64,000 nt of DNA from Candidatus Sulfotelmatobacter sp. (GTDB taxonomy: Bacteria; Acidobacteriota; Terriglobia; Terriglobales; Acidobacteriaceae): contig JASHNU010000038.1 of NCBI GenBank assembly GCA_030041475.1, positions 1-64,000 of the forward strand, in the 5' to 3' direction. The translations under genes and the position numbers were made by a program. Under the pieces are notes generated by a model. That model was not told the DNA's origin. It did not search any database and was given only the letters and a program-made list of their open reading frames with translations. This document shows, one piece after another, positions 526 through 15,286 of the stretch. The stretch's first letter is position 1, and each line of letters opens with the position of its first letter.

Positions 526-541
526 TGTGATTTCGGTCACA
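526..541. promoter_or_regulatory. CRP/FNR-superfamily operator, perfect TGTGA-N6-TCACA
   Basis: Both half-sites match the classical CRP consensus exactly, separated by TTTCGG. The centre (533.5) lies 42 bp before the ATG of the first bcr gene. If the site works as a class II activator site near -41.5, transcription would begin at about 575, at the start codon itself. A protein with a DNA-binding HTH of this family is not encoded in the window; the cNMP-binding protein at 14297 lacks one. Confidence 0.55.
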
Positions 542-575: not shown

Positions 576-1721
576 ATGGCTGAATTCGAACGAACGTTCG
601 ATATTTGTGCCGGATTGGACTTCCCCTCGGTACGCGAGTGGAAGCAGGCTCACCCTGAGTCGAAAGCGATTGCCTACTTTCCCGTTTATGCGCCGGTGGA
701 GTTGATTCACGCCGCAGGCATGCTCCCGGTCGGTCTCAGTGGCGCTGGAGACCAGCTTGACATCCAGCATGCCGATGCCCGTTTCGGATCGTTCATTTGC
801 TCAATCGTCAAGACTACCCTCGAAATGGGCCTGACGGGCCATCTTGAGCCGTTTGATGGTTTTCTGTTTTCCACGATTTGTGACTCGGCCCGAAATCTCT
901 GTTTTGTCATGAAGCGAAATTTCCCCGCGATGTACGTGGACTTCCTCCACCTTCCCCACAATCCAAGTTCACCGGCCGCGGCACAGTTCCTGACGGAAGA
1001 ATATCGGCGGGTGCTCAGCGAGTTCGAACGCCTCGGCAACTGCAAGGTCAGCGACGATGCACTTCGCAGTTCCATCCGGCTCTATAACCGAAGCCGGGCG
1101 CTTATTCGGGGACTCTACGAGTTGCGCAGGCAGAATCCAGAAAAAGTCCCCACTTCGGAGCTTTATCAGCTTGTCCGGGCAGGGACTTTCCTCCCCGTGG
1201 AAGAGCACATCACGCAGTTGGAGCGAGTGTTGGCGGAAGTCGCTTCCCGCAGCCCGAAGAAGCGGGACTCGATTCGCATCGTGGTGGAAGGATCGTTCTG
1301 CGAACAGCCGCCGCTCCCGCTGATCCGCCTCATTGAAGAGGCTGGTTGCTACGTCGTGGACGATGATTTTGTAATCGGGCAGAGTTGGTTTGACGCCGAC
1401 CTTCCCACAGACGGCGATCCTGTGCCGGCGCTGGCGACCAGCTACCTCGATCATTCCGTGTACTCCTCCGTGCGTCATGACCTCCGCAAACCACGCTGGG
1501 ACGGACTGGTAGAAAAGGTCCGGCGGAGCAAGGCAGACGCGGTGCTGTTCCTTATAGCTAAGTTCTGCGAGCCTGCCTACTTCGATTACGTCCCGTACAA
1601 GCAGGAACTGGAGCGTGCCGGAATCCCTCACCTGCAACTCGAGTTCGAGGAAAAGTCGTTCACCTTCGATCGGCTCCGCACGGAAATCGAGACTTTTGTG
1701 GAATCGTTGGTTTTCGATTGA
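576..1721 (+). CDS. bcrC: Benzoyl-CoA reductase subunit, HgdB/BcrC type (gamma)
   Basis: A 381-aa protein of the 2-hydroxyacyl-CoA dehydratase D-component family (HgdB/BcrB/BcrC). The N-terminal PVYAPVELIHAAGMLPVGL stretch (about residues 36-54) is typical. Cysteines C75, C102, C242 and C331 are candidates for the three ligands of a [4Fe-4S] cluster. With its partner it should form the cytoplasmic ring-reducing half of class I benzoyl-CoA reductase, which reduces benzoyl-CoA to the 1,5-dienoyl-CoA at the cost of ATP. The length fits BcrC/BzdN, and the order matches bcrC-B-A-D in Thauera. I chose ATG 576 over GTG 546: the family N-terminus fits, and the operator at 526-541 would otherwise run into the leader. 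Neither start has a clear ribosome-binding site. Subunit letter is inferred from size and order. Confidence 0.88.
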   Translation: MAEFERTFDICAGLDFPSVREWKQAHPESKAIAYFPVYAPVELIHAAGMLPVGLSGAGDQLDIQHADARFGSFICSIVKTTLEMGLTGHLEPFDGFLFSTICDSARNLCFVMKRNFPAMYVDFLHLPHNPSSPAAAQFLTEEYRRVLSEFERLGNCKVSDDALRSSIRLYNRSRALIRGLYELRRQNPEKVPTSELYQLVRAGTFLPVEEHITQLERVLAEVASRSPKKRDSIRIVVEGSFCEQPPLPLIRLIEEAGCYVVDDDFVIGQSWFDADLPTDGDPVPALATSYLDHSVYSSVRHDLRKPRWDGLVEKVRRSKADAVLFLIAKFCEPAYFDYVPYKQELERAGIPHLQLEFEEKSFTFDRLRTEIETFVESLVFD

Positions 1722-1732
1722 GGAAATCAAGG

Positions 1733-2998
1733 ATGACAGAAAAGAAGGAATATCGCGGCTCCATCCACCAGCAGCAAAAGGATCTGATGCTGGCCTGGTA
1801 CGAGCAACTGGATCATGCCGCCATCACCGGCGATCCTCCCACAGTTTCCATGATGATATCGGGCAACTGCGTTGAGTTGCTGGAGGGCTTCGGCGCCGTG
1901 CCGATCTATCCGGAGGTCAACGCGTTGCAGTTGGCCATTCGCCATCAATCACTCGACCCCATCTTAGCCGCGGAGGATCTGGGCTATGCGGCGGACAACT
2001 GCGCCTACGTCAAAGCCGATATCGGCTGCATCTTGAAAGGCATCACACCGACGGGCGGAAGACTGCCGACGCCGACGCTGATCCTCTGCAACTTCGTCGG
2101 CTGCAACACTTACCTGAAGTGGTTTGAACATCTAGCCAAGCTGCAGCAAGCGCCGTTGTACGTGATCGACGTCCCGTTCATGCGCGCCGACGAACCTTCG
2201 CGATCGGATGTGGACTATGTGGTCAAACAGTTGCAGGAAACGGTCAAGACACTCGAGCAGCTCACTGGGCGCAAATTCGACCATGATCGCTTCCGGCAGG
2301 CAGTGGAGTGCTCCAGTCGCTCGGAAGAGCTGTGGTCACAGATTAAACATCTGGCGCGCCGTTCGCCTTCGCCCTTCGATGCCTATTTTGATGCGATCAC
2401 TCTGATGGGACCGCTTTATGTCTACCGCGGCAAGCCCGAGGGCGTGGAATTTTTTGAGGTTGCTTTAGCCGAACTTCAAGCGAAGGTGGACGCAGGCCAG
2501 GGGGTTTACGAAAAAGAGCACTTCCGTGTTGTGATGGAGGGCCCACCGCCGTATCCGTATTTCCGCACATTTCGCGACATGTTCGCCAAGTGGCAGGCGT
2601 GTGCAGTGGCCTCGACTTATTCGACAGTGGGCGGACTTTGGGAGTTTGGGTTCCGTCACGATCCTGAAAATCCGTTTGAGTCAGTGGCTATGCACATGAT
2701 CGCGCAGAACGTGACCAACCGCAATTATCTGCAGCGCTACGAGCAGATCCGTCGTTACGTCGAAGAGTGGAATGCCGACGGTGTAATCATCCACTTCGTG
2801 AAGAGCTGCCGGCTGTTTTCCGCCGGTCAAGGCGACATGCGCGATTACTTCGCCAAGCAGCTCGGCGTGCCGACCTTGTACATCGAATCTGATCTCGAGG
2901 ATCCGCGCTACTTCGCCGAAGCGCAGACCAGGAACCGGATTGATGCGTTCTTCGAGTCGCTGGAGCACGCTAAAGCAACCCTGTCTACGCGGGTGTAA
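1733..2998 (+). CDS. bcrB: Benzoyl-CoA reductase subunit, HgdB/BcrB type (beta)
   Basis: A 421-aa paralogue of the preceding protein, in the same 2-hydroxyacyl-CoA dehydratase D-component family, and the longer of the pair as BcrB/BzdO is. Conserved-looking cysteines are C46 (SGNCVELL), C119 and C124 (ILCNFVGCN), and one in HFVKSC near residue 370; some should bind a [4Fe-4S] cluster. With BcrC it would bind benzoyl-CoA and deliver two single electrons to the ring. The gene starts 11 bp after bcrC at ATG 1733, with AGGA at 1721-1724; an in-frame TTG at 1718 is less likely. It is followed after 12 bp by the ATPase subunits. The family is clear; the substrate is inferred from the downstream had/oah/dch genes. 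Confidence 0.88.
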   Translation: MTEKKEYRGSIHQQQKDLMLAWYEQLDHAAITGDPPTVSMMISGNCVELLEGFGAVPIYPEVNALQLAIRHQSLDPILAAEDLGYAADNCAYVKADIGCILKGITPTGGRLPTPTLILCNFVGCNTYLKWFEHLAKLQQAPLYVIDVPFMRADEPSRSDVDYVVKQLQETVKTLEQLTGRKFDHDRFRQAVECSSRSEELWSQIKHLARRSPSPFDAYFDAITLMGPLYVYRGKPEGVEFFEVALAELQAKVDAGQGVYEKEHFRVVMEGPPPYPYFRTFRDMFAKWQACAVASTYSTVGGLWEFGFRHDPENPFESVAMHMIAQNVTNRNYLQRYEQIRRYVEEWNADGVIIHFVKSCRLFSAGQGDMRDYFAKQLGVPTLYIESDLEDPRYFAEAQTRNRIDAFFESLEHAKATLSTRV

Positions 2999-3010
2999 CG
3001 AGAGGAGAAC

Positions 3011-3850
3011 ATGAGAATCGCGGCCGGAGTTGATGTCGGTTCCACGCAGACCAAGGCGGTGGTCATGTCGGACAACGGAGGCGTGGAGATCGTGGCGCGG
3101 GCCCTTGTGGATACCGGGGCCAACGTGCAGCGCGCCGCGGAGCGCGCCTTCGATACGTGTTGCCGGGAGGCAGGCATTCACACTGGCAACGTGGGATTTG
3201 TCGTCGGCACCGGATACGGCCGTTACAAGATCGCTTTCGGCAATACTCAGATGACTGAGATCACCTGCCACGCCAAGGGCGCCAGCTTTCTCTGTCCGGG
3301 CACGCGCACCGTCATTGATATGGGCGGGCAGGATTCAAAAGCGATCAGCGTCGGAGCCAACGGCGAGGTGCTCGATTTCGTCATGAATGACAAGTGCGCA
3401 GCAGGCACCGGACGCTTTCTGGCGAATTCAGCGGAGGTCATGGGCATCAGCCTGGAGGAGGTCGGCCCGCTCTCCCTGCAGGCGAAACATCCGGTTAAGA
3501 TTGCAACTGTGTGCACCGTGTTTGTCGAGTCTGACATTCTTTCCTATCTGGCGCAGGGCAAGACGGCGGAAGACATCCTCGGGGGCGTTCATATCGCTAT
3601 TGCCAAACGCACACTGTCGCTGGTGCGGCGCCTCAACCTTGAGCCGGAAATCACCATGACAGGCGGTGTGGCCCGCAACATCGGCATGGTCCAGGCTCTT
3701 GAGCAACTCATCGGACGCAAGATGCAGGTCAGCCCGGACGCGCAATTTATCGGCGCGGTCGGTGCGGCGCTGTTCGCTCTGGAGAAACTCGACCAGAGCT
3801 TCGAATCCGGCATCTGGAGGAGTGATCATGCCGTTTCTGGCGGGCATTGA
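3011..3850 (+). CDS. bcrA: Benzoyl-CoA reductase ATPase subunit (BcrA/BadF/HgdC family)
   Basis: A 279-aa ASKHA-fold ATPase of the BcrA/BadF/HgdC electron-activator family. Motifs: phosphate-1 GVDVGSTQTKAVV (6-18), phosphate-2 DMGGQDSK (103-110), C129 in NDKCAAGTG and C168 in ATVCTVFVE, the two cysteines which in the HgdC-like dimer bridge one [4Fe-4S] cluster, and the adenosine motif TGGVARN (217-223). It would take electrons from reduced ferredoxin and drive them to the BcrBC half with ATP hydrolysis. Ribosome-binding site AGAGGAG lies just before ATG 3011. The length (279) resembles Azoarcus BzdP/Q and BcrD (about 280) rather than the roughly 440-aa Thauera BcrA. The letter A is by gene order only; A and D cannot be told apart here. 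Confidence 0.82.
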   Translation: MRIAAGVDVGSTQTKAVVMSDNGGVEIVARALVDTGANVQRAAERAFDTCCREAGIHTGNVGFVVGTGYGRYKIAFGNTQMTEITCHAKGASFLCPGTRTVIDMGGQDSKAISVGANGEVLDFVMNDKCAAGTGRFLANSAEVMGISLEEVGPLSLQAKHPVKIATVCTVFVESDILSYLAQGKTAEDILGGVHIAIAKRTLSLVRRLNLEPEITMTGGVARNIGMVQALEQLIGRKMQVSPDAQFIGAVGAALFALEKLDQSFESGIWRSDHAVSGGH

Positions 3851-4658
3851 TTGCGGAACCAGCTTCACCAAAGCAGTTGTGCTTTGCGACCTGAACAACC
3901 AGCCTCGTGTTGTGGGCCAGGGCCGGACGCGCAGCGGCGTGAAAGTCGACGAGGCTGCGAACGCGGCGTTGCAAGAGGCGCTGGTACAAGCCGGACTCAG
4001 GCGGCCGCAACTCGAATACATCGCCACTACCGGGTTCGGCCGATATGGCGTGAGCTTCCGCGACATTCAAGTCACGGAAATCACCACCGCGGCCCGGGGC
4101 GCGCATTTTGCCATCCCGCACACCACAGCAGTTCTTGATATTGGGGGACAGTGCACGCGCGCGATCGGTATCAACGAAACTGGCAAGGTCAAGGTGTTCA
4201 AGAGCAACGACAAGTGCGCCGCCGGTTCCGGGATGTTCATCCAGCGCGCTGCCAAGTATCTCGAAGTGTCACTGGAGGACGTGGGTGAACTTTCCCTCCG
4301 AGCCACGCATCCTCAGCCGATCTCGAGTGTGTGCGCGGTGCTGGCGGAGAGCGAAATCATCAACCATGTCAGCGCCGGCATCACCGTGCAAGACATCTTG
4401 CGGGGCATTCATGAATCCCTGGCCGACCGTGCTGGAGCCCTGCTCAAGCGCGTGGAAATGAAAGACTCGATTACGCTCATCGGCGGAGTCGCGCGCCAAG
4501 CGGGCATGGCCAAGGCCCTCGAAGATCGTCTTAAGGTGAAAGTCAACATTCCGCAGGATTGCGATTTTGTGTGCGCTCTAGGAGCCGCTCTGCTCGGACT
4601 TAAGCGCCTGGCCAGCCGATCTACGGTGGGAGCGGCGGCGAGGGAATATGCGAATTGA
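3828..4658 (+). CDS. bcrD: Benzoyl-CoA reductase second ATPase subunit (BcrD-like)
   Basis: A 276-aa second ASKHA ATPase, paralogous to the previous one and overlapping it by 23 bp. It starts at ATG 3828 behind GGAGG (3816-3820). Motifs: GIDCGTSFTKAVV (6-18), phosphate-2 DIGGQCTRAI (104-113), C130 in NDKCAAGSG, C169 in SSVCAVLAE, and the adenosine motif IGGVARQ (218-224). C130 and C169 would supply half the ligands of the cluster shared with the first ATPase subunit. Odd point: the residue after GGQ is cysteine (C109), where the sister subunit has aspartate (GGQD). Together with the first subunit it would form the ATP-hydrolysing electron-activation half. The assignment to D follows operon order. 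Confidence 0.82.
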   Translation: MPFLAGIDCGTSFTKAVVLCDLNNQPRVVGQGRTRSGVKVDEAANAALQEALVQAGLRRPQLEYIATTGFGRYGVSFRDIQVTEITTAARGAHFAIPHTTAVLDIGGQCTRAIGINETGKVKVFKSNDKCAAGSGMFIQRAAKYLEVSLEDVGELSLRATHPQPISSVCAVLAESEIINHVSAGITVQDILRGIHESLADRAGALLKRVEMKDSITLIGGVARQAGMAKALEDRLKVKVNIPQDCDFVCALGAALLGLKRLASRSTVGAAAREYAN

Positions 4659-5739
4659 CGGGGCCTACGGATATCGGCTGGTCGCGGTAGGTCAGCCGTT
4701 AGAGCGGTGTGAAATTCCCGCGTTCGAACTAGGGCCCGAGGAGGTCGTCGTCGAAGTTGCGGGCTGCGGTGTCTGCCACACCGACGTTGGTTTTGCTATC
4801 GATGGCGTTCCAACGCGGAAGCCGCTGCCTCTTGTGCTTGGGCACGAAGTCAGCGGGCGCGTAATCGCCGCCGGTGACAAAGCCGCAGCTTGGGTAGGAC
4901 GAACGGTTATCGTTCCGGCTGTCATCCCTTGCGGTATCTGTCCAGCTTGCCAGGTGGGGCGGCCCACCGTCTGCCGCAGTCAATTCATGCCCGGCAACGA
5001 TGGCGACGGCGGCTTCGCTACTCACGTTCGTGTCCCTGCCCGCGGTCTGTGTCCCGTGCCCGAACCACTGCCTCCCGGCCTGGTTACCGAGAGTCTCTCC
5101 GTGATCGCCGATGCCGTGACTACACCCTGGGAAGCGATACGCCGCGCTGGAGTCTGCCCCGATGATGTAACTGTCTTCGTCGGCGTAGGCGGCGTAGGCG
5201 GATTTGGCGTTCAGATCGCAGCCGCGCTGGGCGCAGCCGTCGCCGCCATCGATATAGATCCAGCCAAGCTGGAACTGGCTGCGCAGCACGGCGCAGGTTT
5301 GACTCTCAATTCCTCCACGATGAACGAGAAGGATCTCAAGGCCGCGGTCCGAAGCTTTGCCAAACAGAGCGGGCGTCGAGGGATCGGCTTCAAGATTTTC
5401 GAAACCAGCGGAACTCCTGCCGGACAGCAAACTGCTTTTGGTCTGCTTGACTTCGGCGGTTACCTTGCCGTCGTGGGATTCACGCCCAAGAAAATAGATC
5501 TGCGCCTGTCAAATCTTATGGCACTCGACGCCACGGCGCGCGGCAATTGGGGCTGTCCCCCGGACCAGTACCCAGCTGCGCTCGACTTGGTCTTGCAGGG
5601 CAAAGTTGCGATTGCACCATACGTCGAACTGCACCCACTGGACGACGCTCCGGCGGTTTTCGAGGCGGTCGTGCGGCACGCGATTGCCCGCCGCGCAATT
5701 CTCAAGCCCGCCTCCAACGACAATCAGGAGAAGCCATGA
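4648..5739 (+). CDS. had: 6-hydroxycyclohex-1-ene-1-carbonyl-CoA dehydrogenase
   Basis: A 363-aa zinc-dependent medium-chain dehydrogenase. Visible are the catalytic-zinc region CGVCHTDVG, GHEVSGRV, the structural-zinc cluster CGICPACQVGRPTVC, and a Rossmann loop VGVGGVGGFG near residue 180. In benzoyl-CoA degradation Had oxidises 6-hydroxycyclohex-1-ene-1-carbonyl-CoA to the 6-oxo compound with NAD+. Its place between bcrD (11-bp overlap) and oah (4-bp overlap) supports this specific role; by sequence alone it could be another alcohol dehydrogenase. The close overlaps suggest translational coupling. Confidence 0.85.
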   Translation: MRIDGAYGYRLVAVGQPLERCEIPAFELGPEEVVVEVAGCGVCHTDVGFAIDGVPTRKPLPLVLGHEVSGRVIAAGDKAAAWVGRTVIVPAVIPCGICPACQVGRPTVCRSQFMPGNDGDGGFATHVRVPARGLCPVPEPLPPGLVTESLSVIADAVTTPWEAIRRAGVCPDDVTVFVGVGGVGGFGVQIAAALGAAVAAIDIDPAKLELAAQHGAGLTLNSSTMNEKDLKAAVRSFAKQSGRRGIGFKIFETSGTPAGQQTAFGLLDFGGYLAVVGFTPKKIDLRLSNLMALDATARGNWGCPPDQYPAALDLVLQGKVAIAPYVELHPLDDAPAVFEAVVRHAIARRAILKPASNDNQEKP

Positions 5740-6845
5740 AGAACCACAACCTCATCGGAAATCCGCCGCGCGCAAACATTCTGGTTGAACGCCGCCCCGT
5801 CCGCGGGCGGGATGGTTCGCCAGTGGAAGAGTTGCACAACGTCTGGATCACGCTCAACAATCCCGCCGAACTCAACAGCTACACCACCGACATGGCTAAG
5901 GAAATCATCCTGGCTTTGCGCGAAGCCAGCAACGATCGCGCGGCTGTCGCAGTGGTGCTGACGGGCGCCGGCAACCGAGCCTTTTGCTCCGGAGGAAATA
6001 CCCGCGAGTATGCCGAGGTGTACGCGGGCGCACCCGCTGAGTATCGCCAATACATGCGGCTCTTTAACGATATGGTCACCTCTGTGCTGCAATGCGACAA
6101 ACCGGTCATCTGCCGCGTGAACGGCATGCGTGTGGGAGGCGGGCAGGAAGTCGGCATGGCCTGTGACTTCTCGATCGCAAGCGACATGGCGGTGTTCAGC
6201 CAAGCTGGGCCCAAGCACGGCTCGGCCCCGGATGGCGGTAGTACGGACTTTCTTCCAGTCTACGTCGGCATTGAGCGCGCCATGATGAGCGGCACGCTGT
6301 GCGAACCTTGGAGCGCCCATCGTTTCTACTGGCTGGGCGGACTGACGCAAATTGTCCCCGTGACGAAAGTCGACGGCAAGTTCATTCCGAATCCGCTGGT
6401 TGTCTCGGATCGTCTGCTCGACGAATATGGCCGCATAGTGATCGGCGAGTTCAAGACCGGGGAGGCAAAGAGACAGGCACAGGATCTGCTGGCCACAGCA
6501 CACACCGACCTCAGCCTGCTCGACGAGGCCGTCGAGCAGCTCTGCACCAAGTTTCTCTACACGATGCCGGATTGCCTGATCAAAACCATTGAGAGCCTGC
6601 GCAAACACAAACTCGAGCACTGGGATCGCAATCGCGAAACCAACCGGGCATGGCTCTCGCTCAACATGATGACCGAGGCGAATGCCGGCTTCCGAGCTTT
6701 CCATTATGGAGACAAGAAGAACCGCGAAGTAGACTTCGTACGGCTGCGCCAGCGGCTGGCGCAAGGGGCCCGCTGGAGTGAAGAACTGATCGAAGAGATT
6801 GCCCCCTGGACGGCGCAAAGAGTTCCGGAAGGAGCGGTGAAATGA
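5736..6845 (+). CDS. oah: 6-oxocyclohex-1-ene-1-carbonyl-CoA hydrolase (ring-opening; BamA)
   Basis: A 369-aa enoyl-CoA hydratase-superfamily protein with the features of Oah/BamA: FCSGGNTREYAEVYAG near residues 86-101, VGGGQEVGMACDFSIAS, and QAGPKHGSAPDGGSTDFLP. Oah/BamA hydrolytically opens the 6-oxocyclohexenecarbonyl-CoA ring to 3-hydroxypimelyl-CoA, and bamA is widely used as a marker gene for anaerobic aromatic degradation. Its length fits the family (about 375 aa). It starts at ATG 5736, overlapping the had stop codon by four bases (ATGA); an upstream in-frame start inside had gives an unrelated N-terminus and is rejected. This is the strongest evidence that the operon is for benzoyl-CoA or a close analogue. 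Confidence 0.92.
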   Translation: MKNHNLIGNPPRANILVERRPVRGRDGSPVEELHNVWITLNNPAELNSYTTDMAKEIILALREASNDRAAVAVVLTGAGNRAFCSGGNTREYAEVYAGAPAEYRQYMRLFNDMVTSVLQCDKPVICRVNGMRVGGGQEVGMACDFSIASDMAVFSQAGPKHGSAPDGGSTDFLPVYVGIERAMMSGTLCEPWSAHRFYWLGGLTQIVPVTKVDGKFIPNPLVVSDRLLDEYGRIVIGEFKTGEAKRQAQDLLATAHTDLSLLDEAVEQLCTKFLYTMPDCLIKTIESLRKHKLEHWDRNRETNRAWLSLNMMTEANAGFRAFHYGDKKNREVDFVRLRQRLAQGARWSEELIEEIAPWTAQRVPEGAVK

Positions 6846-7624
6846 CTTTCCAGAAAATCCGGCTCGAGTTCACCCATGAAGAGCGGGTAGCACGCATTAC
6901 ATTAGCCTCTCCGAAGGCCAATATTCTGGATCGTGCGATGATCCGTGAACTTGCAACGGCTTTTTCACGCTGCGCCGGTCGCGCACTGAATGCGATCGTC
7001 GTCGACGCAGATGGGCCGCACTTCAGCTTTGGAGCCAGTGTACAGGAACATCTTCCCAGCCAGATTGCCGGCACGCTGCAAGCGCTGCATGCCTTGCTCA
7101 AACAGATCTACGAGGCTCCAGCACCGGTGATTGCAGCGGTGCGCGGCCAGTGTCTCGGCGGGGGATTTGAGCTTGTTCTCGCGTGTGACCTGGTCATCTG
7201 CGATAAAACCACACAGTTTGCTTCGCCCGAAATCAAGCTGGGCGTTTTTGCTCCCGCGGCCTCCGCCTTTCTACCCATTCGGATCGGACAGGCCGCCGCC
7301 TCAAGGCTGCTCCTGACCGGGACCGCTATCAGCGCACAGGAAGCCAGCCGTTTGGGTCTCGTGGCAAGACTGGCAGACGACCTCGATGCCGAATTAGAAC
7401 AGTGGCTGCAATCGGACTTTCTCTCTCGCTCCCCCTCGTCTCTGAAATTTGCCTGCCGTGCGGCACGGCTGCCCCTCCGTCGAGTGTTCGAACAGGAACT
7501 GCCAGAGCTTGAGGCGCTGTATCTGCGCGATCTGATGGCGACTGCGGACGCGGAGGAAGGCATTCGCGCGTTCTTGGAGAAGCGTGCCCCGCACTGGAAC
7601 AAACCCGCGCTGGCCGAGAAATAA
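6842..7624 (+). CDS. dch: Cyclohexa-1,5-diene-1-carbonyl-CoA hydratase
   Basis: A 260-aa crotonase-family protein. The oxyanion-hole region reads PHFSFGASVQEHLP, a form typical of dienoyl-CoA hydratases of the benzoyl-CoA pathway, and the second region is RGQCLGGGFELVLACDLVI. The enzyme adds water to the dienoyl-CoA made by benzoyl-CoA reductase, giving the substrate of Had. It overlaps oah by four bases (ATGA at 6842-6845). With bcr, had and oah it completes the dearomatisation and ring-opening set in one operon. A general enoyl-CoA hydratase is the alternative, but context and the SFGASVQEH motif favour Dch. Confidence 0.87.
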   Translation: MTFQKIRLEFTHEERVARITLASPKANILDRAMIRELATAFSRCAGRALNAIVVDADGPHFSFGASVQEHLPSQIAGTLQALHALLKQIYEAPAPVIAAVRGQCLGGGFELVLACDLVICDKTTQFASPEIKLGVFAPAASAFLPIRIGQAAASRLLLTGTAISAQEASRLGLVARLADDLDAELEQWLQSDFLSRSPSSLKFACRAARLPLRRVFEQELPELEALYLRDLMATADAEEGIRAFLEKRAPHWNKPALAEK

Positions 7625-7625
7625 A

Positions 7626-8354
7626 ATGCCCCCTTCTTCTGACCTCGAAGGAAAGATCGCGGTTGTAACTGGAGGCTCGGGAGCGATCGGTCAGGCAATT
7701 GCGTGCTCGCTCGGCGCCGCCGGCGCGCAGGCGATTTCGTTGGATTTAGCCCCTCCCAAATGCGCCGATTTTTCCTGGATCGAGTGTGACGTGCGCGATG
7801 ACGCCTCAGTCGCAAACGCCGTCCGCGAAGTTGCGAGCCGGCACGGAGGTGTTGACCTAGCTGTCCACGCCGCGGGTGTTTCGCACGATGCCGTTGTCTG
7901 GAAGCTACCGGTCGAGGACTGGGATTTCGTCCAGAGCGTGAATCTCCGCGGCGCATTTTTGCTGATTCGCCACACCTTGCCCCTCATGCGTGCACGGGGT
8001 GCAGGACGGATCGTTCTGATCGGCTCGATCAATGGCTCCCGCGGCAAATTCGGCACTGCCGCATATTCCGCGAGCAAAGCCGGTTTACTCGGTCTGGCGA
8101 AAAGTGCCGCGCGCGAAGCCGGGCGCTTCGGTATTCTAATTAACGTGATCGAGCCGGGCTGGGTGCGTACGCCGCTGACCGAATCCGTTCCGCAGCGGAT
8201 TCGCGATGCAGCGATGGCCGAGAACTTGGTCGGAAGTTTCGTTGAGCCCAGCGACATTGGCCATGCCGTCGCATTTCTCTGCGGCCCAGGCGGCGGGCGA
8301 ATTACCGGACAGATCCTGCGAGTTGATGGTGGGCAGTTTCTTGGTCCCACTTAA
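7626..8354 (+). CDS. Short-chain dehydrogenase/reductase (possible 3-hydroxyacyl-CoA dehydrogenase)
   Basis: A 242-aa classical SDR. It shows the nucleotide-binding TGGSGAIGQAIA near the N-terminus, VHAAGVS in the NAG position, a serine in IGSINGS, and the catalytic YSASK. It starts at ATG 7626, one base after the dch stop. FabG-like reductases share this form. In this operon it may oxidise 3-hydroxypimelyl-CoA or another hydroxyacyl-CoA after ring opening; that role is inference from position only. An in-frame TTG at 7584 within dch is rejected as a start. Confidence 0.75.
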   Translation: MPPSSDLEGKIAVVTGGSGAIGQAIACSLGAAGAQAISLDLAPPKCADFSWIECDVRDDASVANAVREVASRHGGVDLAVHAAGVSHDAVVWKLPVEDWDFVQSVNLRGAFLLIRHTLPLMRARGAGRIVLIGSINGSRGKFGTAAYSASKAGLLGLAKSAAREAGRFGILINVIEPGWVRTPLTESVPQRIRDAAMAENLVGSFVEPSDIGHAVAFLCGPGGGRITGQILRVDGGQFLGPT

Positions 8355-8374
8355 GTTTCTGCTTGGAGGTACTC

Positions 8375-9106
8375 ATGACGAATTCCAATCTTCTTCGTTG
8401 CACAAGATGCGGACGGGTCGCGGCCGAAAAGGACAAGTTCTGCGCGGAGTGCGGACTGTTCCTGCGCGATGCCGCCGTGGATCAGCGCTTGCTGTTAGCC
8501 CTCGTCCACGAACGGGAAGGCCGCAGCCAGGAGGCACGGCACGAGCTCGAACACTTGCTCACGACTGAGCCCCACCACGTGCTGGCCAACCATCTGCTCG
8601 GGAACTTGCACTTTCACGAAGGCTTGTTGGATCAGGCCGCTGAGTATTACCGGAAAGCGGTCGCGGCAGCACCCTCCTTTTTGCTCGGACACTACGATCT
8701 TGGGGTCGCCTATTATCACCGTGGCGACATGCCGCGAGCTGCGCAGGCCTTCCGCCGCTGCCTGGAAAGCGATCCAAACTACAATGCTGCCCACTATCGC
8801 CTCGGACTGGCGTTGTTTCACAACGGCCAACTGGACGAGGCTCGCCGGCACTTTGAGCTGTCGCTGGTGCTTACTCCCGAGTATCTGATGGCGCATTACC
8901 ACCTCGGCATCATTCACGAGCGGCAGGGTGAGTACGAAGCGGCGGCACGCGAATTTGAGCGCAGCCTGGAGGAATCCAGCGGTGACGTGAGCAGCCTGTA
9001 TCACCTTGCCCTGGTGCGCGACGCGCAAGGCGACCATGCCGCCGCCGCCGATTTGCGCCAACGAGCTCGCGGTTTTGCCAGCTCGCAACCCGTAGGAGCG
9101 AAATAG
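8375..9106 (+). CDS. Zinc-ribbon plus TPR-repeat protein of unknown role
   Basis: A 243-aa cytoplasmic protein. The first 25 residues hold a zinc ribbon, CTRCG followed by FCAECG. The rest is about six tetratricopeptide repeats, for example HHVLANHLLGNLHFHEG, SFLLGHYDLGVAYYHRG, NYNAAHYRLGLALFHNG and EYLMAHYHLGIIHERQG. GGAGG at 8365-8369 places the start at ATG 8375. TPR arrays mediate protein-protein contacts, so this may be an assembly or scaffold factor for the reductase complex or its iron-sulfur maturation; this is speculation. It is not a component known to me in bcr, bzd or bad clusters. Confidence 0.75.
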   Translation: MTNSNLLRCTRCGRVAAEKDKFCAECGLFLRDAAVDQRLLLALVHEREGRSQEARHELEHLLTTEPHHVLANHLLGNLHFHEGLLDQAAEYYRKAVAAAPSFLLGHYDLGVAYYHRGDMPRAAQAFRRCLESDPNYNAAHYRLGLALFHNGQLDEARRHFELSLVLTPEYLMAHYHLGIIHERQGEYEAAAREFERSLEESSGDVSSLYHLALVRDAQGDHAAAADLRQRARGFASSQPVGAK

Positions 9107-9121
9107 AGGGTTGAGGTGGCC

Positions 9122-10363
9122 ATGAACCCACTGGAGGAGAAAAGCCTCATCTATGACTGGGCCGGGCAGGGCCCACGCCGCGCCCAGTGGCCCAGTCACG
9201 TGATGATTGACGACGAGACCCTGCGCGACGGCCTGCAAAGCCCCTCCGTAACGGACCCTCCGGTCGAAACCAAGTTGCAGATTCTTCACCTTATGGAGAG
9301 TCTGGGGATTGAAACAGCCGATGTAGGCCTGCCTGGCGCTGGAGCGCGCCAGCAGGAAGCAGTCTTGCTGCTCTGCCGGGAGATTGCGAAGTGCCACATG
9401 CGCATCCGGGCCAACTGCGCCGCCCGCACGCTGATGGTTGACATCCGCCCGATTGCGGAAGCTACGCAGCTCACCGGCGTTCCCATCGAAGCCTGCCTCT
9501 TCATTGGTTCCAGCCCAATTCGCCAGTATGCGGAGGAGTGGGACCTCGACGATATCCTCCGCCATACCCAGGAGGCCATAAGCTTTGCCATACGCGAGGG
9601 CCTGGAGGTGATGTATGTTACTGAGGACACCGTTCGCTCCTCGCCCGACCACCTCCGCATTCTTCTTACTGCGGCCATTGAATCCGGCGCCAGACGACTC
9701 TGTCTTTGTGACACCTGTGGTGCGGCAACTCCGGAGGCGGTTTTCAACTTGGTATGTTGGGTCAAAGAGTTGCTGAACACGATCGGATCGGCGCAGATCG
9801 GCATCGATTGGCACGGGCACCGCGATCGTGGCCTCGACTTGTCCAACACATTGGCCGCGATCGAAGCAGGCGCCAGCCGGGTCCACGGCACGGCGCTAGG
9901 CATCGGAGAACGAGTAGGAAACACGTCGATCGAGCAACTGCTGGTCAATCTAAAATTACTAGGCGTCCGTAACGACGATCTGACTCGCCTGCCCGAATAT
10001 GTTCAGCTCGTTTCGCAGGTCACACAGGTCCCTATCGGAGTCAATACTCCCATCGTCGGGAGCGACGCATTCCGCACCGCGACAGGCGTCCATGCTGCGG
10101 CCGTAGTTAAGGCTCAAAAAAGAGGACACAGCTGGCTGGCTGACCGGATCTATTCCGGAGTCCCCGCGGGCTGGATCGGTCGTAAACAGGAGATTGAGAT
10201 TGGTCCGATGTCCGGAAATTCTAACGTGCAGTACTATCTCTCCTGCCGTGGCCTGCCGGTCACACCGGAACTGACGAAGCGAATCATGGATGAGGCCAAG
10301 AAGTCTCCGCGGGTTTTGACAGACGCTGAGGTCATGGAGATCGTTCGTAGTTCCCACTTCTAA
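9122..10363 (+). CDS. LeuA-like DRE-TIM metallolyase (isopropylmalate/homocitrate synthase family)
   Basis: A 413-aa TIM-barrel enzyme of the DRE-TIM family. It has the start-of-barrel motif DDETLRDGLQ (family RDGEQ position), the metal motif WHGHRDRGLDLSN, the GIGERVGN signature of the Claisen-condensing (LeuA/homocitrate synthase/Re-citrate synthase) branch, and TGVHAAAVVKA. The C-terminal LeuA regulatory domain is missing. Such enzymes join acetyl-CoA to a 2-oxo acid, or cleave the reverse. Its place at the end of a benzoyl-CoA operon is unusual; the substrate is unknown. GTG 9116 is a possible start, but GAGG at 9113-9116 favours ATG 9122. The gene ends 37 bp from the convergent regulator gene with no obvious hairpin between. 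Confidence 0.8.
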   Translation: MNPLEEKSLIYDWAGQGPRRAQWPSHVMIDDETLRDGLQSPSVTDPPVETKLQILHLMESLGIETADVGLPGAGARQQEAVLLLCREIAKCHMRIRANCAARTLMVDIRPIAEATQLTGVPIEACLFIGSSPIRQYAEEWDLDDILRHTQEAISFAIREGLEVMYVTEDTVRSSPDHLRILLTAAIESGARRLCLCDTCGAATPEAVFNLVCWVKELLNTIGSAQIGIDWHGHRDRGLDLSNTLAAIEAGASRVHGTALGIGERVGNTSIEQLLVNLKLLGVRNDDLTRLPEYVQLVSQVTQVPIGVNTPIVGSDAFRTATGVHAAAVVKAQKRGHSWLADRIYSGVPAGWIGRKQEIEIGPMSGNSNVQYYLSCRGLPVTPELTKRIMDEAKKSPRVLTDAEVMEIVRSSHF

Positions 10364-10400
10364 TCACACGGCACTCGGCTAAGAATTCGCCCAGTCCCAA

Positions 10401-11756
10401 TCACACGAGGCCGTGCTCGCGCAGCTTTCGGTACAAATTTCGCTCGCTGATTCCCAGAATCTTGGCTGCATTTCCGCGATGCCCCTTGCTGGCCGCGAGC
10501 GCCATTCGGATGTGCGAAAGTTCGGCTTCCTGTAGTGTCGGCAAAGTGTCCTGCGCCAAGGGCCCGGTTTGGGCAGCAGGCCTCCCATTGCGCAGGGAAG
10601 CGGGCAAGTGCTCAGGTAGAACTTGCGGTCCTTCGCAGAGTACGAGAGCAGCTTCGACCACGTGCAGGAGTTCGCGCACATTGCCCGGCCAGCTGTGGCG
10701 GCGCAGGAGCTGCAGGGCCGCTTCGCTAATCTGCTTATTAGAACCGAACCGGTCGTTGAGCACGGCCGCAAAGTGCTGTGCCAACAGTTCCACGTCAGCT
10801 CCTCGATGGCGCAAGGGCGGCACTTCCACCGTGATCGTACTGAGGCGGTAAAACAAGTCTTCGCGGAACAGTCCCTGACGCACCATGGCCGGTATGTCGC
10901 GATTGGTCGCGGTCAGAATCCGGACATCCACTCGAATTTCCCGGGTGCTCCCTACACGGCGGAAGGTGGAGGTATCGAGCACGCGTAACAATTTCGTCTG
11001 CGTTGCGGGGCTCACCTCCCCGATTTCGTCGAGGAAAATGGTTCCTCCGTTAGCAACTTCGAACAACCCAGGCTTGGCGCGGTCCGCTCCGGTGAAGGCC
11101 CCACGCTCGTGGCCGAACAGTTCGCTCTGGAGCAGGCTCTCCTGGAGCGCAGCGCATTCGACTACCACGAACGGCCGCGACCGGCGCGCACTGCGCGCAT
11201 GAATCAGCTTCGCCACCCTTTCCTTTCCCGCGCCGGTCTCGCCGCTGATGAGCACAGTCGAATCACTGGGGGCAACCCGCTCAATCAGGTTGAGCAGGCG
11301 CCGGAACTCCGGGCTGTCGCCAACGAATGAATTGCTGAGATCCGGTGGAGTCAGACCGCGCTCGAGAATGCTCGTTCTCTGGCGCAGGGATCGCCGTTCC
11401 ATCGCCCTCTGGATGCGAATCTGAAGTTCATCCAGCGGGCAAGGCTTCACCACATAGTCGCAGGCGCCGATGCGAATGGATTCGATGGCGCTATCGATGG
11501 AACCATGTCCAGTCAGCATGATGACTTCGGTGGTTGGCGTGCAGGCCTGGATAGCCTTCAAGGTCTCGAGTCCGCCCATGCCAGGCAAGCGCAAATCCAG
11601 CAAGACAACTTCGGGCTCCGCCGTCGTTACTCGCTCGATTGCTTCTTCGCCGGTGGCCACCGCGTCGACCTCATAGCCGCAACGACCCAGTTCGCCCGCC
11701 ATCACTTGCCGAAACGCCGCGTCGTCATCCACCAAAAGAAGGGAAGGTTGTTTCAT
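10401..11756 (-). CDS. NtrC-family sigma54-dependent response regulator
   Basis: A 451-aa three-domain regulator. The receiver domain (1-120) has the acidic pair DDD at 10-12, the phospho-acceptor D54 (LLDLRLPG) and the conserved lysine in VVKPCPL. The AAA+ domain has Walker A GETGAGKE near residue 173, the sigma54-contacting GAFTGA loop (ERGAFTGADRA) and Walker B GGTIFLDEIGE. A Fis-type helix-turn-helix ends the protein (RGNAAKILGISERNLYRKL). It needs sigma54 promoters. It is translationally coupled to the sensor kinase upstream (ATGA, 11753-11756). Likely targets are the electron-transfer operon starting at 13955 and perhaps the bcr operon. Confidence 0.93.
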   Translation of the reverse strand: MKQPSLLLVDDDAAFRQVMAGELGRCGYEVDAVATGEEAIERVTTAEPEVVLLDLRLPGMGGLETLKAIQACTPTTEVIMLTGHGSIDSAIESIRIGACDYVVKPCPLDELQIRIQRAMERRSLRQRTSILERGLTPPDLSNSFVGDSPEFRRLLNLIERVAPSDSTVLISGETGAGKERVAKLIHARSARRSRPFVVVECAALQESLLQSELFGHERGAFTGADRAKPGLFEVANGGTIFLDEIGEVSPATQTKLLRVLDTSTFRRVGSTREIRVDVRILTATNRDIPAMVRQGLFREDLFYRLSTITVEVPPLRHRGADVELLAQHFAAVLNDRFGSNKQISEAALQLLRRHSWPGNVRELLHVVEAALVLCEGPQVLPEHLPASLRNGRPAAQTGPLAQDTLPTLQEAELSHIRMALAASKGHRGNAAKILGISERNLYRKLREHGLV

Positions 11757-13627
11757 GGTCCGTCCGCCGTTCTCACGTCGGAATGGATTGCAGGAATCAC
11801 GACCTCAAAAGCAGACCCCTTGCCAGGCTCACTCTCAACAGTGATATTTCCACCCCAGCTTCGGACCGCATTTAGGGACAAAAACAGGCCGAGCCCAGTT
11901 CCGCCCTGGCGAAGGCTGAAAAAGGGTTCGAAAATTTTTTGTTGGTATTCCGGCGCGATCCCGCATCCTTCGTCGGTGACGCGGATGCGGACGGAATCAC
12001 CGTCGTGCGCGGCGACGACGACCTTGCTGCCTACCGTAGATGCCTGAATCGCGTTGAGCAGAAGATTGACCAGCAGATTTTGCAACTCGGCCTCGTCAGC
12101 ACGGACATGCAGCGTAGTTGCGGACGGCTGCACCACGACATTCACGGAACTAGCGCGAGCCGTCGGCTCGACGAGCTTTTGGGCAGCAGCAATGGCGGCG
12201 TTCAGATCTATGATTTCTCCAGCCGCCTGTCGCTGTCCGCGCGACAGGCGCAGAAAGTGCTGTGTAATACTGCGGCAGCGCAGAATCTGTTCGCGCGCGA
12301 TCATCGCATTCTCACGGATTCTGTCATCATTCGTGGGCTTGTCCGTGCTGGCCGGGTTTTGACGGAGGATTCCCTCTACGCACATCAGGGTCGTTGCCAG
12401 AGGGGTGTTCATCTCATGCGAGAACCCGGAAGCCAGGACTCCCACCGACGCCAAGCGATATGACTCAGCGAGCTTCGCCTCGGCCGCACGCCGTTCGGAG
12501 ATGTCACGCCAGACCTCCACCACCTGAGCCAGCCGTCCCGAGGCATCGAGAATCGGTGAAGCATGAATTTCCTCCCAAGCCACTGTCTTGTTGCCCGTCT
12601 TGCGCTCGCAGATCCGAACCTGGCGCTGGCCCGAGCGCAGACAGGCCAGGGTGGGGCAGTCAGACAGGTTACACGGCTCTGGTTCGAGCTGGTAACAGCA
12701 ACAGCCCAGAACCTGCTCGCGGGAGTTGCCGGCACGCTGCAGAAAAGCGTCGTTGGCCGCCATGATCTTACGCTCAGCGTCGAGCACTACAATGCCGTCA
12801 TCGATACTATTAATCACCGTCTCCAGTCGCTCACGCTGGGTGCGGACTTCGCCGACCAGGCCTGACACCGAATCGGCCATTTCATTAAACTCCTTTGCCA
12901 GCCAGGCCAACGTGTCGGAGCCTTCCGCGGGCACGCGGCGTTCGAGATCGCCCTGGGAGATCAGGCGTGCCGTATTCTCAAAACGCTGCAGGCGGCGCAA
13001 CACCGACACCCGGATCACCAATGCGATGGCTCCGACAATCACGAAGGTCAAAGCGCCGGTTCCGGCTACCATCCAACGCAGGTCACGCGTCATCGCGGCT
13101 CGGACCTCTCCCGCGTTGTAGTCCAGAATCAGGATGCCATTGATTTTCTGGCGGGGATCGTGGCAGCGCTGGCATTCGTCGCGGTTGCGAATCGGCACCA
13201 CGGTTCGCAAAATGGTTCCGCCCCGGGTTTCTATCACGCGGCTTGATCCCCGCCGTTCCGGCGGATCGCGATGGCAGGCCTGGCAGGTGGGAGAGTTGAT
13301 CTGGAACTCATTCCCCGCGGTCCCCGGTTTGCTTGAGTACCGCTGCACGCCATTGCGGTCCAGCACTACCAGTTGTTCGACGCGCGCCTGCTTGCCGAAG
13401 CTCTCGATCATTTGGGCTATCAAGGTGCGGTCATTCCCCATCATCTGGTGTTCGAGGGCGGTGCGGATCAGTTCGCCTTCGGCCAGCGCACTGCTATGTG
13501 CATTTTCTAGAAGGCTCTTGAAATGGCGGGCCGAAAAAACGTAGGCGGCTACTGTGCAGGCTACGACCACCGCCGCAGTTACGCCAAGGGCGAGGCCGAC
13601 CGTCATGCTGGCAAAGCGCAGCTTCAT
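11753..13627 (-). CDS. Membrane sensor histidine kinase with two periplasmic CxxCH heme motifs and a Cys-rich PAS domain
   Basis: A 624-aa kinase. Order: membrane segment (about 6-30); periplasmic domain with CQACH (115-119) and CQRCH (152-156), each a c-type heme attachment site; second membrane segment (about 187-207); HAMP linker (208-260); PAS domain (about 268-380) with cysteines 309, 310, 311, 319, 324, 329 and 340; dimerisation/phosphoacceptor H404 in GFSHEMNTPL; catalytic N-box NLLLNAIQAS, G1 DEGCGIAP and G2 GGTGLGLFLS. It probably reads periplasmic redox state or a gas ligand through heme and phosphorylates the sigma54 regulator next to it. The start is ATG 13627 (MKLRFASM); a further 13-residue extension is possible. 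The cysteines may bind a metal or cluster; that is inference. Confidence 0.92.
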   Translation of the reverse strand: MKLRFASMTVGLALGVTAAVVVACTVAAYVFSARHFKSLLENAHSSALAEGELIRTALEHQMMGNDRTLIAQMIESFGKQARVEQLVVLDRNGVQRYSSKPGTAGNEFQINSPTCQACHRDPPERRGSSRVIETRGGTILRTVVPIRNRDECQRCHDPRQKINGILILDYNAGEVRAAMTRDLRWMVAGTGALTFVIVGAIALVIRVSVLRRLQRFENTARLISQGDLERRVPAEGSDTLAWLAKEFNEMADSVSGLVGEVRTQRERLETVINSIDDGIVVLDAERKIMAANDAFLQRAGNSREQVLGCCCYQLEPEPCNLSDCPTLACLRSGQRQVRICERKTGNKTVAWEEIHASPILDASGRLAQVVEVWRDISERRAAEAKLAESYRLASVGVLASGFSHEMNTPLATTLMCVEGILRQNPASTDKPTNDDRIRENAMIAREQILRCRSITQHFLRLSRGQRQAAGEIIDLNAAIAAAQKLVEPTARASSVNVVVQPSATTLHVRADEAELQNLLVNLLLNAIQASTVGSKVVVAAHDGDSVRIRVTDEGCGIAPEYQQKIFEPFFSLRQGGTGLGLFLSLNAVRSWGGNITVESEPGKGSAFEVVIPAIHSDVRTADGP

Positions 13628-13801
13628 GATGACGGCACCAATATTGCGGGATGATTGCACACGCAAGGATTGCCGTCAACGATTAGCGGGCATTTCGGTT
13701 GCCATTTGAGCGACCGTTGCGGGCAGTGCCGACCTGCGCACACCTGGCTCTGCGCCCGACAAAACAACGGCGGAACTTTTCCGGGTAGCTTCACAGTTCC
13801 C

Positions 13802-13836: not shown

Positions 13837-13908
13837 ATTGTGGCAGTCCTGGTAGGGTACGGCTTCCCAACGCGGTCAGCAAATAAGGACTTAGATCCAC
13901 ATCCGCAC

Positions 13909-13924: not shown

Positions 13925-13954
13925 AGAGCAATGCCGTTGAAGGAGGCAGATGCC

Positions 13955-14287: not shown

Positions 14288-14296
14288 GAATGACCC

Positions 14297-14761
14297 ATGG
14301 GGCATGAACTGCTGAATGGTCTCGCTTCCGCTGAAGTCAAGCAAATCTTGAATCTTGGCACGAGGAGGAACGTCACGGCAGGAACCGCACTGTTCCGACT
14401 GGGAGATCAGGCGGACTCTCTGTTCCTGATCGAACGTGGCCGGATCAAGCTCACTTTGCCCATGCGGGTCCGAGGTGGAGAAGAAAATATTTTCGTGGAA
14501 GAAAGATCTCCGGGCCAGGCCGTGGGCTGGTCAGCACTGATCCCACCCTACCGGTTCACCCTCACCGCTATTGCAGATCTTCACGATGCAGAAGTGATCA
14601 TGCTGCCGCGGCAGGCGTTGCTCCAGTATTTTGAGGCCAATCCGGCGCCGGCTTACAAGATCGCTCTGAATCTGGCAGTAGTGATTGGACATCGTCTGCA
14701 ATTGCTTCAAACGATGTGGCTCCGCGAGGTGCAGCGCACGGTGCAAGTTCACTCTGCCTGA
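14297..14761 (+). CDS. Stand-alone cyclic-nucleotide-binding domain protein (no DNA-binding domain)
   Basis: A 154-aa protein consisting of one CRP-type cNMP-binding beta-barrel: LFRLGDQADSLFLIERGRIKLTL, then a long strand-turn-strand region and VIMLPRQALLQYFEANP, ending in a helix (KIALNLAVVIGHRLQLLQTMW). The sequence stops where CRP/FNR proteins would begin their helix-turn-helix, so it cannot act alone as a DNA-binding regulator. It starts nine bases after the small membrane gene and precedes the Rieske gene; a ligand- or redox-responsive accessory to the respiratory complex is possible. Typical cAMP-contact residues are not obvious. Confidence 0.78.
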   Translation: MGHELLNGLASAEVKQILNLGTRRNVTAGTALFRLGDQADSLFLIERGRIKLTLPMRVRGGEENIFVEERSPGQAVGWSALIPPYRFTLTAIADLHDAEVIMLPRQALLQYFEANPAPAYKIALNLAVVIGHRLQLLQTMWLREVQRTVQVHSA

Positions 14762-14770
14762 CCCGACGCC

Positions 14771-14786
14771 GCCCAAAAAATGGGCC
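14771..14786. repeat. Small hairpin between the cNMP-binding and Rieske genes
   Basis: GCCCA and TGGGC enclose an A-rich loop in the 63-bp gap before the Rieske gene. It is a weak stem with no T-run after it, so at most a processing or attenuation site within the operon. Confidence 0.25.
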
Positions 14787-14824
14787 GGATCCTTGACTGT
14801 TTCGTGCGGCAGGAGGCGCAGTGA

Positions 14825-15286
14825 ATGACAGTTGATCCGCTTTCCGAACCCGCCCAGGCACGCCGCCGCACCATTAAGGTCTTTCTTGGCAGCGGCCTCC
14901 TCGCTTCTTTTGCTTCTTTCATTTACCCCGTGCTGCGCTATCTTATCCCTCCGCCAGTGGCAGATCTCGGGGGAGACGAAATCGTCGCATCCAAGCTCTC
15001 CGAACTGAAGCCGAATTCCGCCAAGATTTTCCGTTTCGGCAGCCATCCCGGATTGCTGATCATGAACAGCGATGGCACTTATCGCGCGCTCTCCGCCACT
15101 TGCACCCACCTGGGGTGTACGGTGCAGTATCGCAGCGATCTGCGCCAGATCTGGTGCGCCTGCCACAACGGCATCTACGATCTCAATGGCCGCAACGTTT
15201 CCGGTCCCCCTCCAAGACCGCTCGCTGTTTTTGACGTTCACTTGCGTGGCGACGAGATTGTCGTCAGCCGGAAGCGGGAGGCGTGA
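14825..15286 (+). CDS. Rieske [2Fe-2S] protein of a cytochrome bc/b6f-type complex
   Basis: A 153-aa protein with an N-terminal twin-arginine-like stretch ([20 protein letters not shown], residues 13-32) and membrane anchor, then the Rieske fold. The cluster motifs are CTHLGC and CACHNGIYD, giving two Cys and two His ligands, with the disulfide cysteines also present. It would accept one electron from quinol at the positive side of the membrane. GGAGG at 14812-14816 supports ATG 14825. Its stop overlaps the GTG of the cytochrome b gene by four bases. Confidence 0.93.

Follow-up and report, generated by a model that had tools for sequence, protein, structure and literature searches.

Classical class I benzoyl-coenzyme A (CoA) reductase, BcrCBAD, is encoded together with had, dch and oah in Thauera, Rhodopseudomonas and Magnetospirillum. 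The other described systems closest to the one considered here are the 3-methylbenzoyl-CoA reductase MbdONPQ of Thauera chlorobenzoica (PDB 9g87, 9gai), BzdNOPQ of Aromatoleum sp. CIB (PDB 8s02) and (R)-2-hydroxyisocaproyl-CoA dehydratase with its activase, HadBC/HadI (PDB 3o3m, 4eht). Few bacterial groups are as common in soil and peat as Acidobacteriota, and one study reportedly describes peatland members with dissimilatory sulfur metabolism; to our knowledge the phylum is seldom listed among anaerobic degraders of aromatics. Here we describe a ten-gene operon at positions 576 to 10,363 of the first 64 kb of contig JASHNU010000038.1 from Candidatus Sulfotelmatobacter sp., the whole of which stretch is called the window below. 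The operon is real and complete, and probably encodes a working class I-type benzoyl-CoA route in an acidobacterium. Our preferred reading, to which we assign a probability of about 0.76, is that it specifies an anaerobic benzoyl-CoA pathway under CRP/FNR-type control, in which a reductase of a third clade has replaced the classical cassette of an older acidobacterial operon.

Organization of the operon

The window is the first part of a contig of 164,186 bases, which begins at window base 1, in a genome of 4.63 Mb that is 99.6% complete. Ten open reading frames (ORFs) fill the interval 576-10363 on a single strand with short gaps or overlaps between neighbors; the start of bcrD overlaps the end of bcrA, and ATGA overlaps occur at Had/Oah and Oah/Dch. 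A sequence-only reading of the window had proposed a complete four-subunit reductase followed by ring-opening genes, a short-chain dehydrogenase/reductase (SDR), a tetratricopeptide repeat (TPR) protein and a LeuA-like enzyme, and all of these were recovered:

576..1721, +, bcrC-like, electron-relay subunit (HGD-D, 381 aa)
1733..2998, +, bcrB-like, catalytic subunit (HGD-D, 421 aa)
3011..3850, +, bcrA-like ATPase/activase, short form (279 aa; 323 bits to MbdQ)
3828..4658, +, bcrD-like ATPase/activase (276 aa; 220 bits to MbdQ, 192 to MbdP, 174 to HadI)
4648..5739, +, had, 6-hydroxycyclohex-1-ene-1-carbonyl-CoA dehydrogenase (TIGR03201)
5736..6845, +, oah (bamA), 6-oxocyclohex-1-ene-1-carbonyl-CoA hydrolase (TIGR03200)
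6842..7624, +, dch, cyclohexa-1,5-diene-1-carbonyl-CoA hydratase (from TIGR03189 as best match and from context)
7626..8354, +, SDR, putative 3-hydroxypimeloyl-CoA (3-hydroxyacyl-CoA) dehydrogenase (FabG-like, under all cut-offs)
8375..9106, +, TPR protein with an N-terminal CxxC...CxxC pair
9116..10363 (start possibly 9122), +, LeuA-like (HMGL-like) protein (PF00682)

The same ten genes are colinear in L048, L050 and L051, three loci from other metagenome-assembled genomes (MAGs), with protein identities of 70-93% on contigs of up to 278 kb. Among the best 80 of 576 confirmed loci from the genome scan, the nearest BcrC loci (83-87%) belong to MAGs named Candidatus Sulfotelmatobacter or Acidobacteriaceae bacterium, in agreement with the acidobacterial origin that had been proposed. 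The contig starts only 575 bp before bcrC, and a regulator/cytochrome block that follows the operon here precedes it in L048, which might hint at an assembly or binning artefact or at a foreign contig. Because contigs of other MAGs carry these ten genes in an identical order, we dismiss chance or a binning accident and regard this explanation as scarcely credible. Rfam gave no match within the window.

The reductase forms a separate clade

Both large subunits carry an HGD-D domain (E = 7e-80 and 4e-69) and both small subunits a BcrAD_BadFG domain (E = 7e-68 and 6e-56), so that two HGD-D proteins and two different BadF/BcrA-type ATPase subunits lie in one operon, which is the broad class I (ATP-dependent) arrangement. 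The best sequence relatives of known structure for all four subunits are those of MbdONPQ, with the 2-hydroxyisocaproyl-CoA dehydratase behind (BcrC, 307 bits to MbdN and 173 to HadC; BcrB, 231 to MbdO and 180 to HadB; BcrA, 323 to MbdQ and 220 to HadI), and no member of the window reductase clade was found among the solved structures searched. The short activase subunits are a further likeness to MbdONPQ; BcrA has 279 aa, against about 430-466 aa for the corresponding ORFs in classical operons of Acidobacteriota. BcrA carries the motifs DMGGQD, KCAAGTG and CTVF, and BcrD carries KCAAGSG and the cysteines of SSVCAV, with GGQC at the site of GGQD (MbdQ, HadI) or GGQT (MbdP). An HGD-D search of the source genome returned only bcrB and bcrC. 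Elsewhere, at G000:C99:62151-63974, two BadF/BcrA-type ATPase domains are joined in a single ORF of about 1200 aa that lies away from any HGD-D gene. In plasmid records BcrC found only distant 2-hydroxyacyl-CoA dehydratase-like proteins, the best at 33%.

The classical equivalogs (NCBIfam TIGR02259/02260/02261/02263) were matched strongly and always below cut-off (BcrC 346 of 421 bits, BcrB 319 of 487, BcrA 188 of 578, BcrD 180 of 313), and the Bzd-type cut-offs were also missed in the profile search. A classical acidobacterial locus, L028, passes the BcrC and BcrB cut-offs and narrowly misses that for BcrA (548 of 578). The class I assignment made from the sequence stands as far as the ATP-dependent type with ring-opening enzymes is concerned; the enzyme is not a textbook BcrABCD, given its separate clade, short BcrA and missed cut-offs.

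Trees were built from 98 BcrC rows and 97 BcrB rows, with fragments below 280 aa (BcrC) and 330 aa (BcrB) excluded; since the rows derive from the best 80 loci, the clade sizes given are minimum values, and named references at greater distance lie outside that set. The label "classical" was taken from L028 and the label "Mbd" from the MbdN and MbdO rows. Four groups appear: classical, Mbd, a minor one whose rows come from Bacteroidota, Ignavibacteriota and related phyla, and a distinct clade to which the window proteins belong, with at least 45 rows for BcrB (support 99/99) and at least 47 for BcrC (98/93). The window reductase is, on these trees, neither classical BcrCBAD nor Mbd nor Bzd. In approximately unbiased (AU) tests on groups named once the tree had been seen, joining the window subclade with the classical BcrB group was rejected (p-AU 4.7e-8), as was joining it with the Mbd group (p-AU 9e-4); the window and Mbd groups are also separate in the BcrC tree. 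The sequence-only reading needs correction on this point: the reductase belongs to a third clade and not to the classical BcrABCD type. HadB, HadC and the Bzd proteins fall outside the reductase clades on long branches of unsure placement. Labels of the clade loci name Acidobacteriota, Myxococcota, Chloroflexota, Elusimicrobiota, Planctomycetota, Bacillota, Vulcanimicrobiota and Caldifarciminota; these eight phylum names come from the labelling of MAGs, which can err for an individual locus. We know of no characterized member of this clade, and the window reductase is apparently a distinct, uncharacterized variant.

Catalytic residues and predicted structure

The passages of PMC11971306 on the BzdNO structure name Cys95, Cys128, Cys380, Glu65, His131 and Tyr97 of BzdO and the six cysteines of the double-cubane cluster of BzdN. 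In BcrB (full-length numbering), Cys90, Cys124, Cys359, Glu61 and Tyr92 are each present in 45 of 45 clade rows (residue counts exclude L045 and L033_BcrB2). The three BzdO cysteines and Tyr97 align with invariant BcrB residues, and Glu61, whose clade-invariant glutamate is also found in MbdO and HadB, is by its position probably the counterpart of Glu65, which lies outside the aligned part. The His131 position is occupied by tyrosine in all 45 rows of the window clade and by phenylalanine in 11 of 11 classical rows; MbdO has phenylalanine here, unlike the window protein, and the Mbd clade is mixed (18 Tyr, 14 Phe). In BcrC, Cys75, Cys102 and Cys331 are kept in 47 of 47 rows, and three of the six BzdN [8Fe-9S] cysteines align. 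Two further cysteines, Cys242 (47/47 in the window clade, 10/10 classical, 32/32 Mbd) and Cys258 (44/47, 10/10 and 31/32), are absent from HadC and BzdN. The cluster cysteines are shared with classical BcrCBAD, and the BcrC cysteine set also with MbdONPQ. From the kept residues, class I chemistry would be expected, with a BcrC relay cluster that is not of the Bzd arrangement. BzdNOPQ resembles the window enzyme in architecture, in the BzdO cluster cysteines, in Tyr97 and probably in Glu65; assignment to the Bzd subtype was nevertheless rejected on the BzdN cysteines, the tyrosine in place of His131 and the missed cut-offs, and identity in the structural alignment is 24%.

The predicted BcrB structure (predicted local distance difference test score, pLDDT, 90.4) gives Z-scores of 47.9 with HadB, 46.5 with MbdO and 45.2 with BzdO, and the top Foldseek match is MbdO. 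As these values are alike, the fold does not decide the family, and the sequence trees were used instead. The similarity to HadB speaks for the view that the HGD-D and BadF genes encode a 2-hydroxyacyl-CoA dehydratase and its activators, placed beside an unrelated ring-opening cluster; HadBC/HadI also shares the [4Fe-4S] cysteines and ATP-driven activation. We consider this view very improbable. HadB and HadC lie outside the reductase clades (100/98 in the BcrC tree and 89/88, on long branches, in the BcrB tree, one HadBC pair being the sole dehydratase representative), Cys242 and Cys258 are common to the Bcr and Mbd types and have no equivalents in HadC, two different ATPase subunits are encoded in place of one activase type, and in the window, L027, L048, L050, L051 and L054 the operon that contains these genes also encodes Had, Oah and Dch. 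The HgdB/HgdC-like genes thus group in the trees with benzoyl-CoA reductases and not with HadBC, as had been anticipated.

Ring-opening genes and a mosaic operon

Had (452 bits, cut-off 339, TIGR03201) and Oah (551 bits, cut-off 464, TIGR03200) pass their curated cut-offs, and Dch has TIGR03189 as its best match, slightly under the cut-off (261 against 292.5 bits). The earlier assignment of Oah to the Oah/BamA family is confirmed by both its score and its place in the Oah tree. A benzoate-CoA ligase, which had been suggested as a gene to look for elsewhere in the genome, has a family member on contig C9 (579 bits, cut-off 375), adjoining a transporter of the major facilitator superfamily type for which no cut-off was reached.

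Like classical BcrCBAD systems, the operon holds the four subunit types with Had and Oah over cut-off, and its ring-processing genes are close to theirs. Relative to the seven classical operons nearest in the Oah tree (L028-L031, L040-L042), Had is 63-69% and Oah 72-76% identical, whereas BcrB and BcrC reach only 37-44%. Oah and Had nest with the classical-type acidobacterial operons (13 Oah rows, 100/99; 14 Had rows, 100/98). The TPR copies in the classical-type operons L030, L032 and L042 are 57-64% and the LeuA-like copies 67-70% identical to those of the window. Gene order differs in the position of the cassette, which stands after oah in the classical operons (Had-Oah-[classical BcrCBAD]-SDR-TPR-LeuA in L030 and L042) and before had in the window, L048, L050 and L051 ([window-clade BcrCBAD]-Had-Oah-Dch-SDR-TPR-LeuA); L027, from a genome of the same family (G257), and L054 have [BcrCBAD]-Had-Oah-Dch. 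The SDR gene follows BcrD or Dch in related operons. The simplest reading of this mosaic is that the reductase cassette was exchanged within a shared had-oah-SDR-TPR-leuA operon. We infer that the classical reductase is ancestral, because outlying acidobacterial operons mostly hold that type.

The LeuA-like protein carries the motifs LRDGLQ and HGHRDRGL and reaches no NCBIfam cut-off for isopropylmalate, homocitrate or citramalate synthase. Relatives occur in 110 of 297 Acidobacteriota genomes, and a second copy in the source genome is 54% identical (G000:C73:19024-20238); in plasmid records the best match is 42%. Copies of at least 60% identity are found in eight genomes, six of which have Oah over cut-off. 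Its use as a marker of the benzoate pathway was dropped, as such a copy is missing from 19 of the 25 Oah-positive genomes, and the protein is best described, from this distribution, as a pathway-linked paralogue and not a universal part.

Other operons of the clade and the question of substrate

Fifty loci of the window clade were compared, among which L053 and L151 (100,181 bases) are probably one contig, and L067 and L153 (12,603 bases) likewise. In 11 of the 50, an SDR gene accompanies an amidohydrolase gene (PF04909, identified from L150), and a Had-type gene is absent from all 11 in the stretch compared. One of them, L150, comes from the same family as the window and has a BcrB 81% identical; its interval 7783-14722 holds the amidohydrolase, the SDR, a reductase of the same clade and then a Rieske-type oxygenase gene (Ring_hydroxyl_A; best NCBIfam match glycine betaine monooxygenase, under cut-off). 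The amidohydrolase-SDR type is also found in L053, L056, L058 and L060. The SDRs of L150 and L071 have BadH as best match, under cut-off, and L071 has an acyl-CoA dehydrogenase gene at the locus. Perhaps the L150-type operon serves a different aryl-CoA route. Further clade loci have Had, Oah and Dch homologues that are distant from the canonical ones.

These operons of close relatives imply that the window clade may not be tied to benzoyl-CoA, and the clade as a whole is not proven, on such comparisons, to consist of benzoyl-CoA reductases. The window reductase itself might act mainly on another aryl-CoA, such as methyl-, hydroxy- or otherwise substituted benzoyl-CoA, with benzoyl-CoA as a secondary substrate; the nearest solved relatives are subunits of a 3-methylbenzoyl-CoA reductase, and sister operons combine the enzyme with amidohydrolase and SDR or with divergent Had, Oah and Dch. 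We rate this alternative as unlikely, although clearly less so than the two discussed above. Had and Oah of the window pass the cut-offs for the unsubstituted ring and group with classical benzoyl-CoA operons, and the genome encodes a protein of the benzoate-CoA ligase family. It is because of these canonical enzymes and the ligase that we favor benzoyl-CoA as the substrate of the window operon.

Under the preferred benzoyl-CoA reading, benzoate would be activated by the CoA ligase encoded on contig C9. The BcrA/BcrD ATPases would use ATP to drive electrons from reduced ferredoxin through the BcrC clusters to the [4Fe-4S] cluster of BcrB, where benzoyl-CoA would be reduced to the 1,5-diene. 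Dch would then hydrate, Had oxidize and Oah hydrolytically open the ring, giving 3-hydroxypimeloyl-CoA, and the SDR would begin β-oxidation. The third-clade reductase would have been recruited into the older had-oah-SDR-TPR-leuA operon, replacing the classical BcrCBAD cassette there, and a CRP/FNR-type regulator probably turns on the operon jointly with ferredoxin-reducing enzymes.

A shared palindrome and the supply of electrons

The evidence for such regulation is a site directly upstream of the operon:

526..541, no strand, CRP/FNR-type palindrome TGTGA-N6-TCACA, perfect, its center 42 nt before bcrC

This CRP-like motif has no other strict match in the window. It lies 42-65 nt before bcrC in ten of ten loci of the window subclade (six perfect, four with one mismatch), some of which are on contigs that end inside the operon; in L047, bcrC is the sole gene. 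Upstream of the amidohydrolase gene it was seen in two of ten tested loci (L151, on the other strand, was excluded), where in five of the ten the amidohydrolase gene is not the operon start because it is downstream of the reductase. The source genome has 27 copies of the palindrome, compared with none for a reversed control and about 2.6 expected at an assumed 59% G+C. Outside the window there are 26 sites; 6 of them lie within a called ORF, and for 24 (all but L166 and L169) one or more neighboring ORFs were scanned.

Genes closely preceded by a site include, over their cut-offs, those for a pyruvate:ferredoxin oxidoreductase (TIGR02176, 1266 bits, cut-off 911), for the FAD/NAD-binding protein PRK06222, which resembles sulfide/dihydroorotate dehydrogenase and is of the NfnB kind, for the small subunit of a NiFe hydrogenase (TIGR00391) and for a radical SAM protein (TIGR04053). 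A 2-oxoacid:ferredoxin oxidoreductase, whose OorD-like delta subunit stays below its cut-offs at 62 bits, and a corrinoid protein, likewise below cut-offs, also closely follow a site, as do an electron-transfer flavoprotein, a cytochrome c and citrate synthase. Other sites precede genes with no tie to this group (glycyl-tRNA ligase beta, AsnA, TldD and a TonB-dependent receptor) or ORFs that match no family. The genome has seven POR_N loci, two of them behind a site. Since sites precede ferredoxin-reducing enzymes, the kind of electron source that class I enzymes need, the predicted site suggests a shared anaerobic regulon of the CRP/FNR type that includes these enzymes. In Thauera, 2-oxoglutarate:ferredoxin oxidoreductase is the electron donor. 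The adjacent NtrC-type regulator was dropped as a candidate activator of the operon, its GG-N9-11-TGC motif being scattered upstream of bcrC and not conserved.

Distribution in Acidobacteriota and significance

Oah over cut-off is present in 25 of 297 Acidobacteriota genomes, the source genome included. Regions from 20 of the other 24 genomes were examined, and three types of reductase were found beside Oah, including the Mbd-clade type in L034 and L039; some Oah regions (e.g., L038, L044 and L046) showed no class I-type reductase. A BcrB relative occurs in 25 of 200 genomes of the class, 17 at 49% identity or more. The idea that the operon would extend aromatic-ring reduction to Acidobacteriota holds in that the operon is present, although it is not an isolated case in the phylum. 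Among the open-literature papers listed, judged by titles and the beginnings of abstracts (most subscription journals and preprints being outside this scope), none describes such an operon in Acidobacteriota, and the passages available from PMC10803450, PMC10936416, PMC12329716, PMC12869995, PMC10116835, PMC11946414 and PMC9040765 contain no such claim.

More tentatively, at a little short of even odds in our estimate, the clade may be a further natural subtype of class I-type aryl-CoA reductase that is spread over many mostly uncultured phyla and has three or more different sets of ring-processing enzymes as partners; within Terriglobia it would have displaced the classical type, giving soil and peat acidobacteria a chimaeric pathway within a CRP/FNR-type anaerobic regulon. 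As the clade loci carry labels of eight phyla, one purified enzyme would aid the annotation of many genomes. The reductase swap beside conserved ring-opening genes offers a natural experiment on the choice of substrate and partners by class I-type enzymes.

Several observations weigh against the reading of the operon as a benzoyl-CoA pathway with an exchanged reductase. None of the four reductase subunits reaches an NCBIfam cut-off, and Dch is slightly short as well. The comparison of predicted and solved folds cannot separate BcrB from HadB. In the trees, long branches were flagged, PDB rows foremost, and joins among such branches may be false; the AU groups were chosen with the tree already in view. 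Near relatives of the reductase (BcrB 76-81%) have amidohydrolase and SDR genes and no Had or Oah in the stretch compared. The Had tree divides the holders of the window-type reductase into two groups, keeping the window group apart from the G257 group, so that more than one exchange event is possible. The trait is patchy, since BcrB found no match at 1e-20 in G084, which belongs to the same genus. As respiratory markers, nitrate reductase NarG and dissimilatory sulfite reductase DsrA gave no match over cut-off in the source genome, which has four PF00115 matches (haem-copper oxidase family, oxidases and nitric oxide reductases taken together).

Regulator and cytochrome genes beside the operon

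Downstream of the LeuA-like gene lies a block with these features:

10401..11756, -, sigma-54-dependent response regulator (also in L048, 92%)
11753..13666, -, sensor histidine kinase with two CxxCH haem motifs in its N-terminal sensor part (L048, 87%)
14297..17617, +, cyclic nucleoside monophosphate (cNMP)-binding protein, Rieske protein, cytochrome b and cytochrome c with nine CxxCH motifs (block kept in L048)

A possible role of the haem sensor kinase and the sigma-54 response regulator is redox sensing. The cytochrome block is tied to the bcr operon by position only. Its first gene (14297-14761) encodes a 154-aa cNMP-binding protein (82% in L048) in which no DNA-binding domain was detected. 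Between the two genomes the block and the bcr operon are cleanly permuted; the block as a whole abuts the operon in both, following it in the window (10390-17617) and preceding it in the Sulfotelmatobacter locus (L048:1691-8906).

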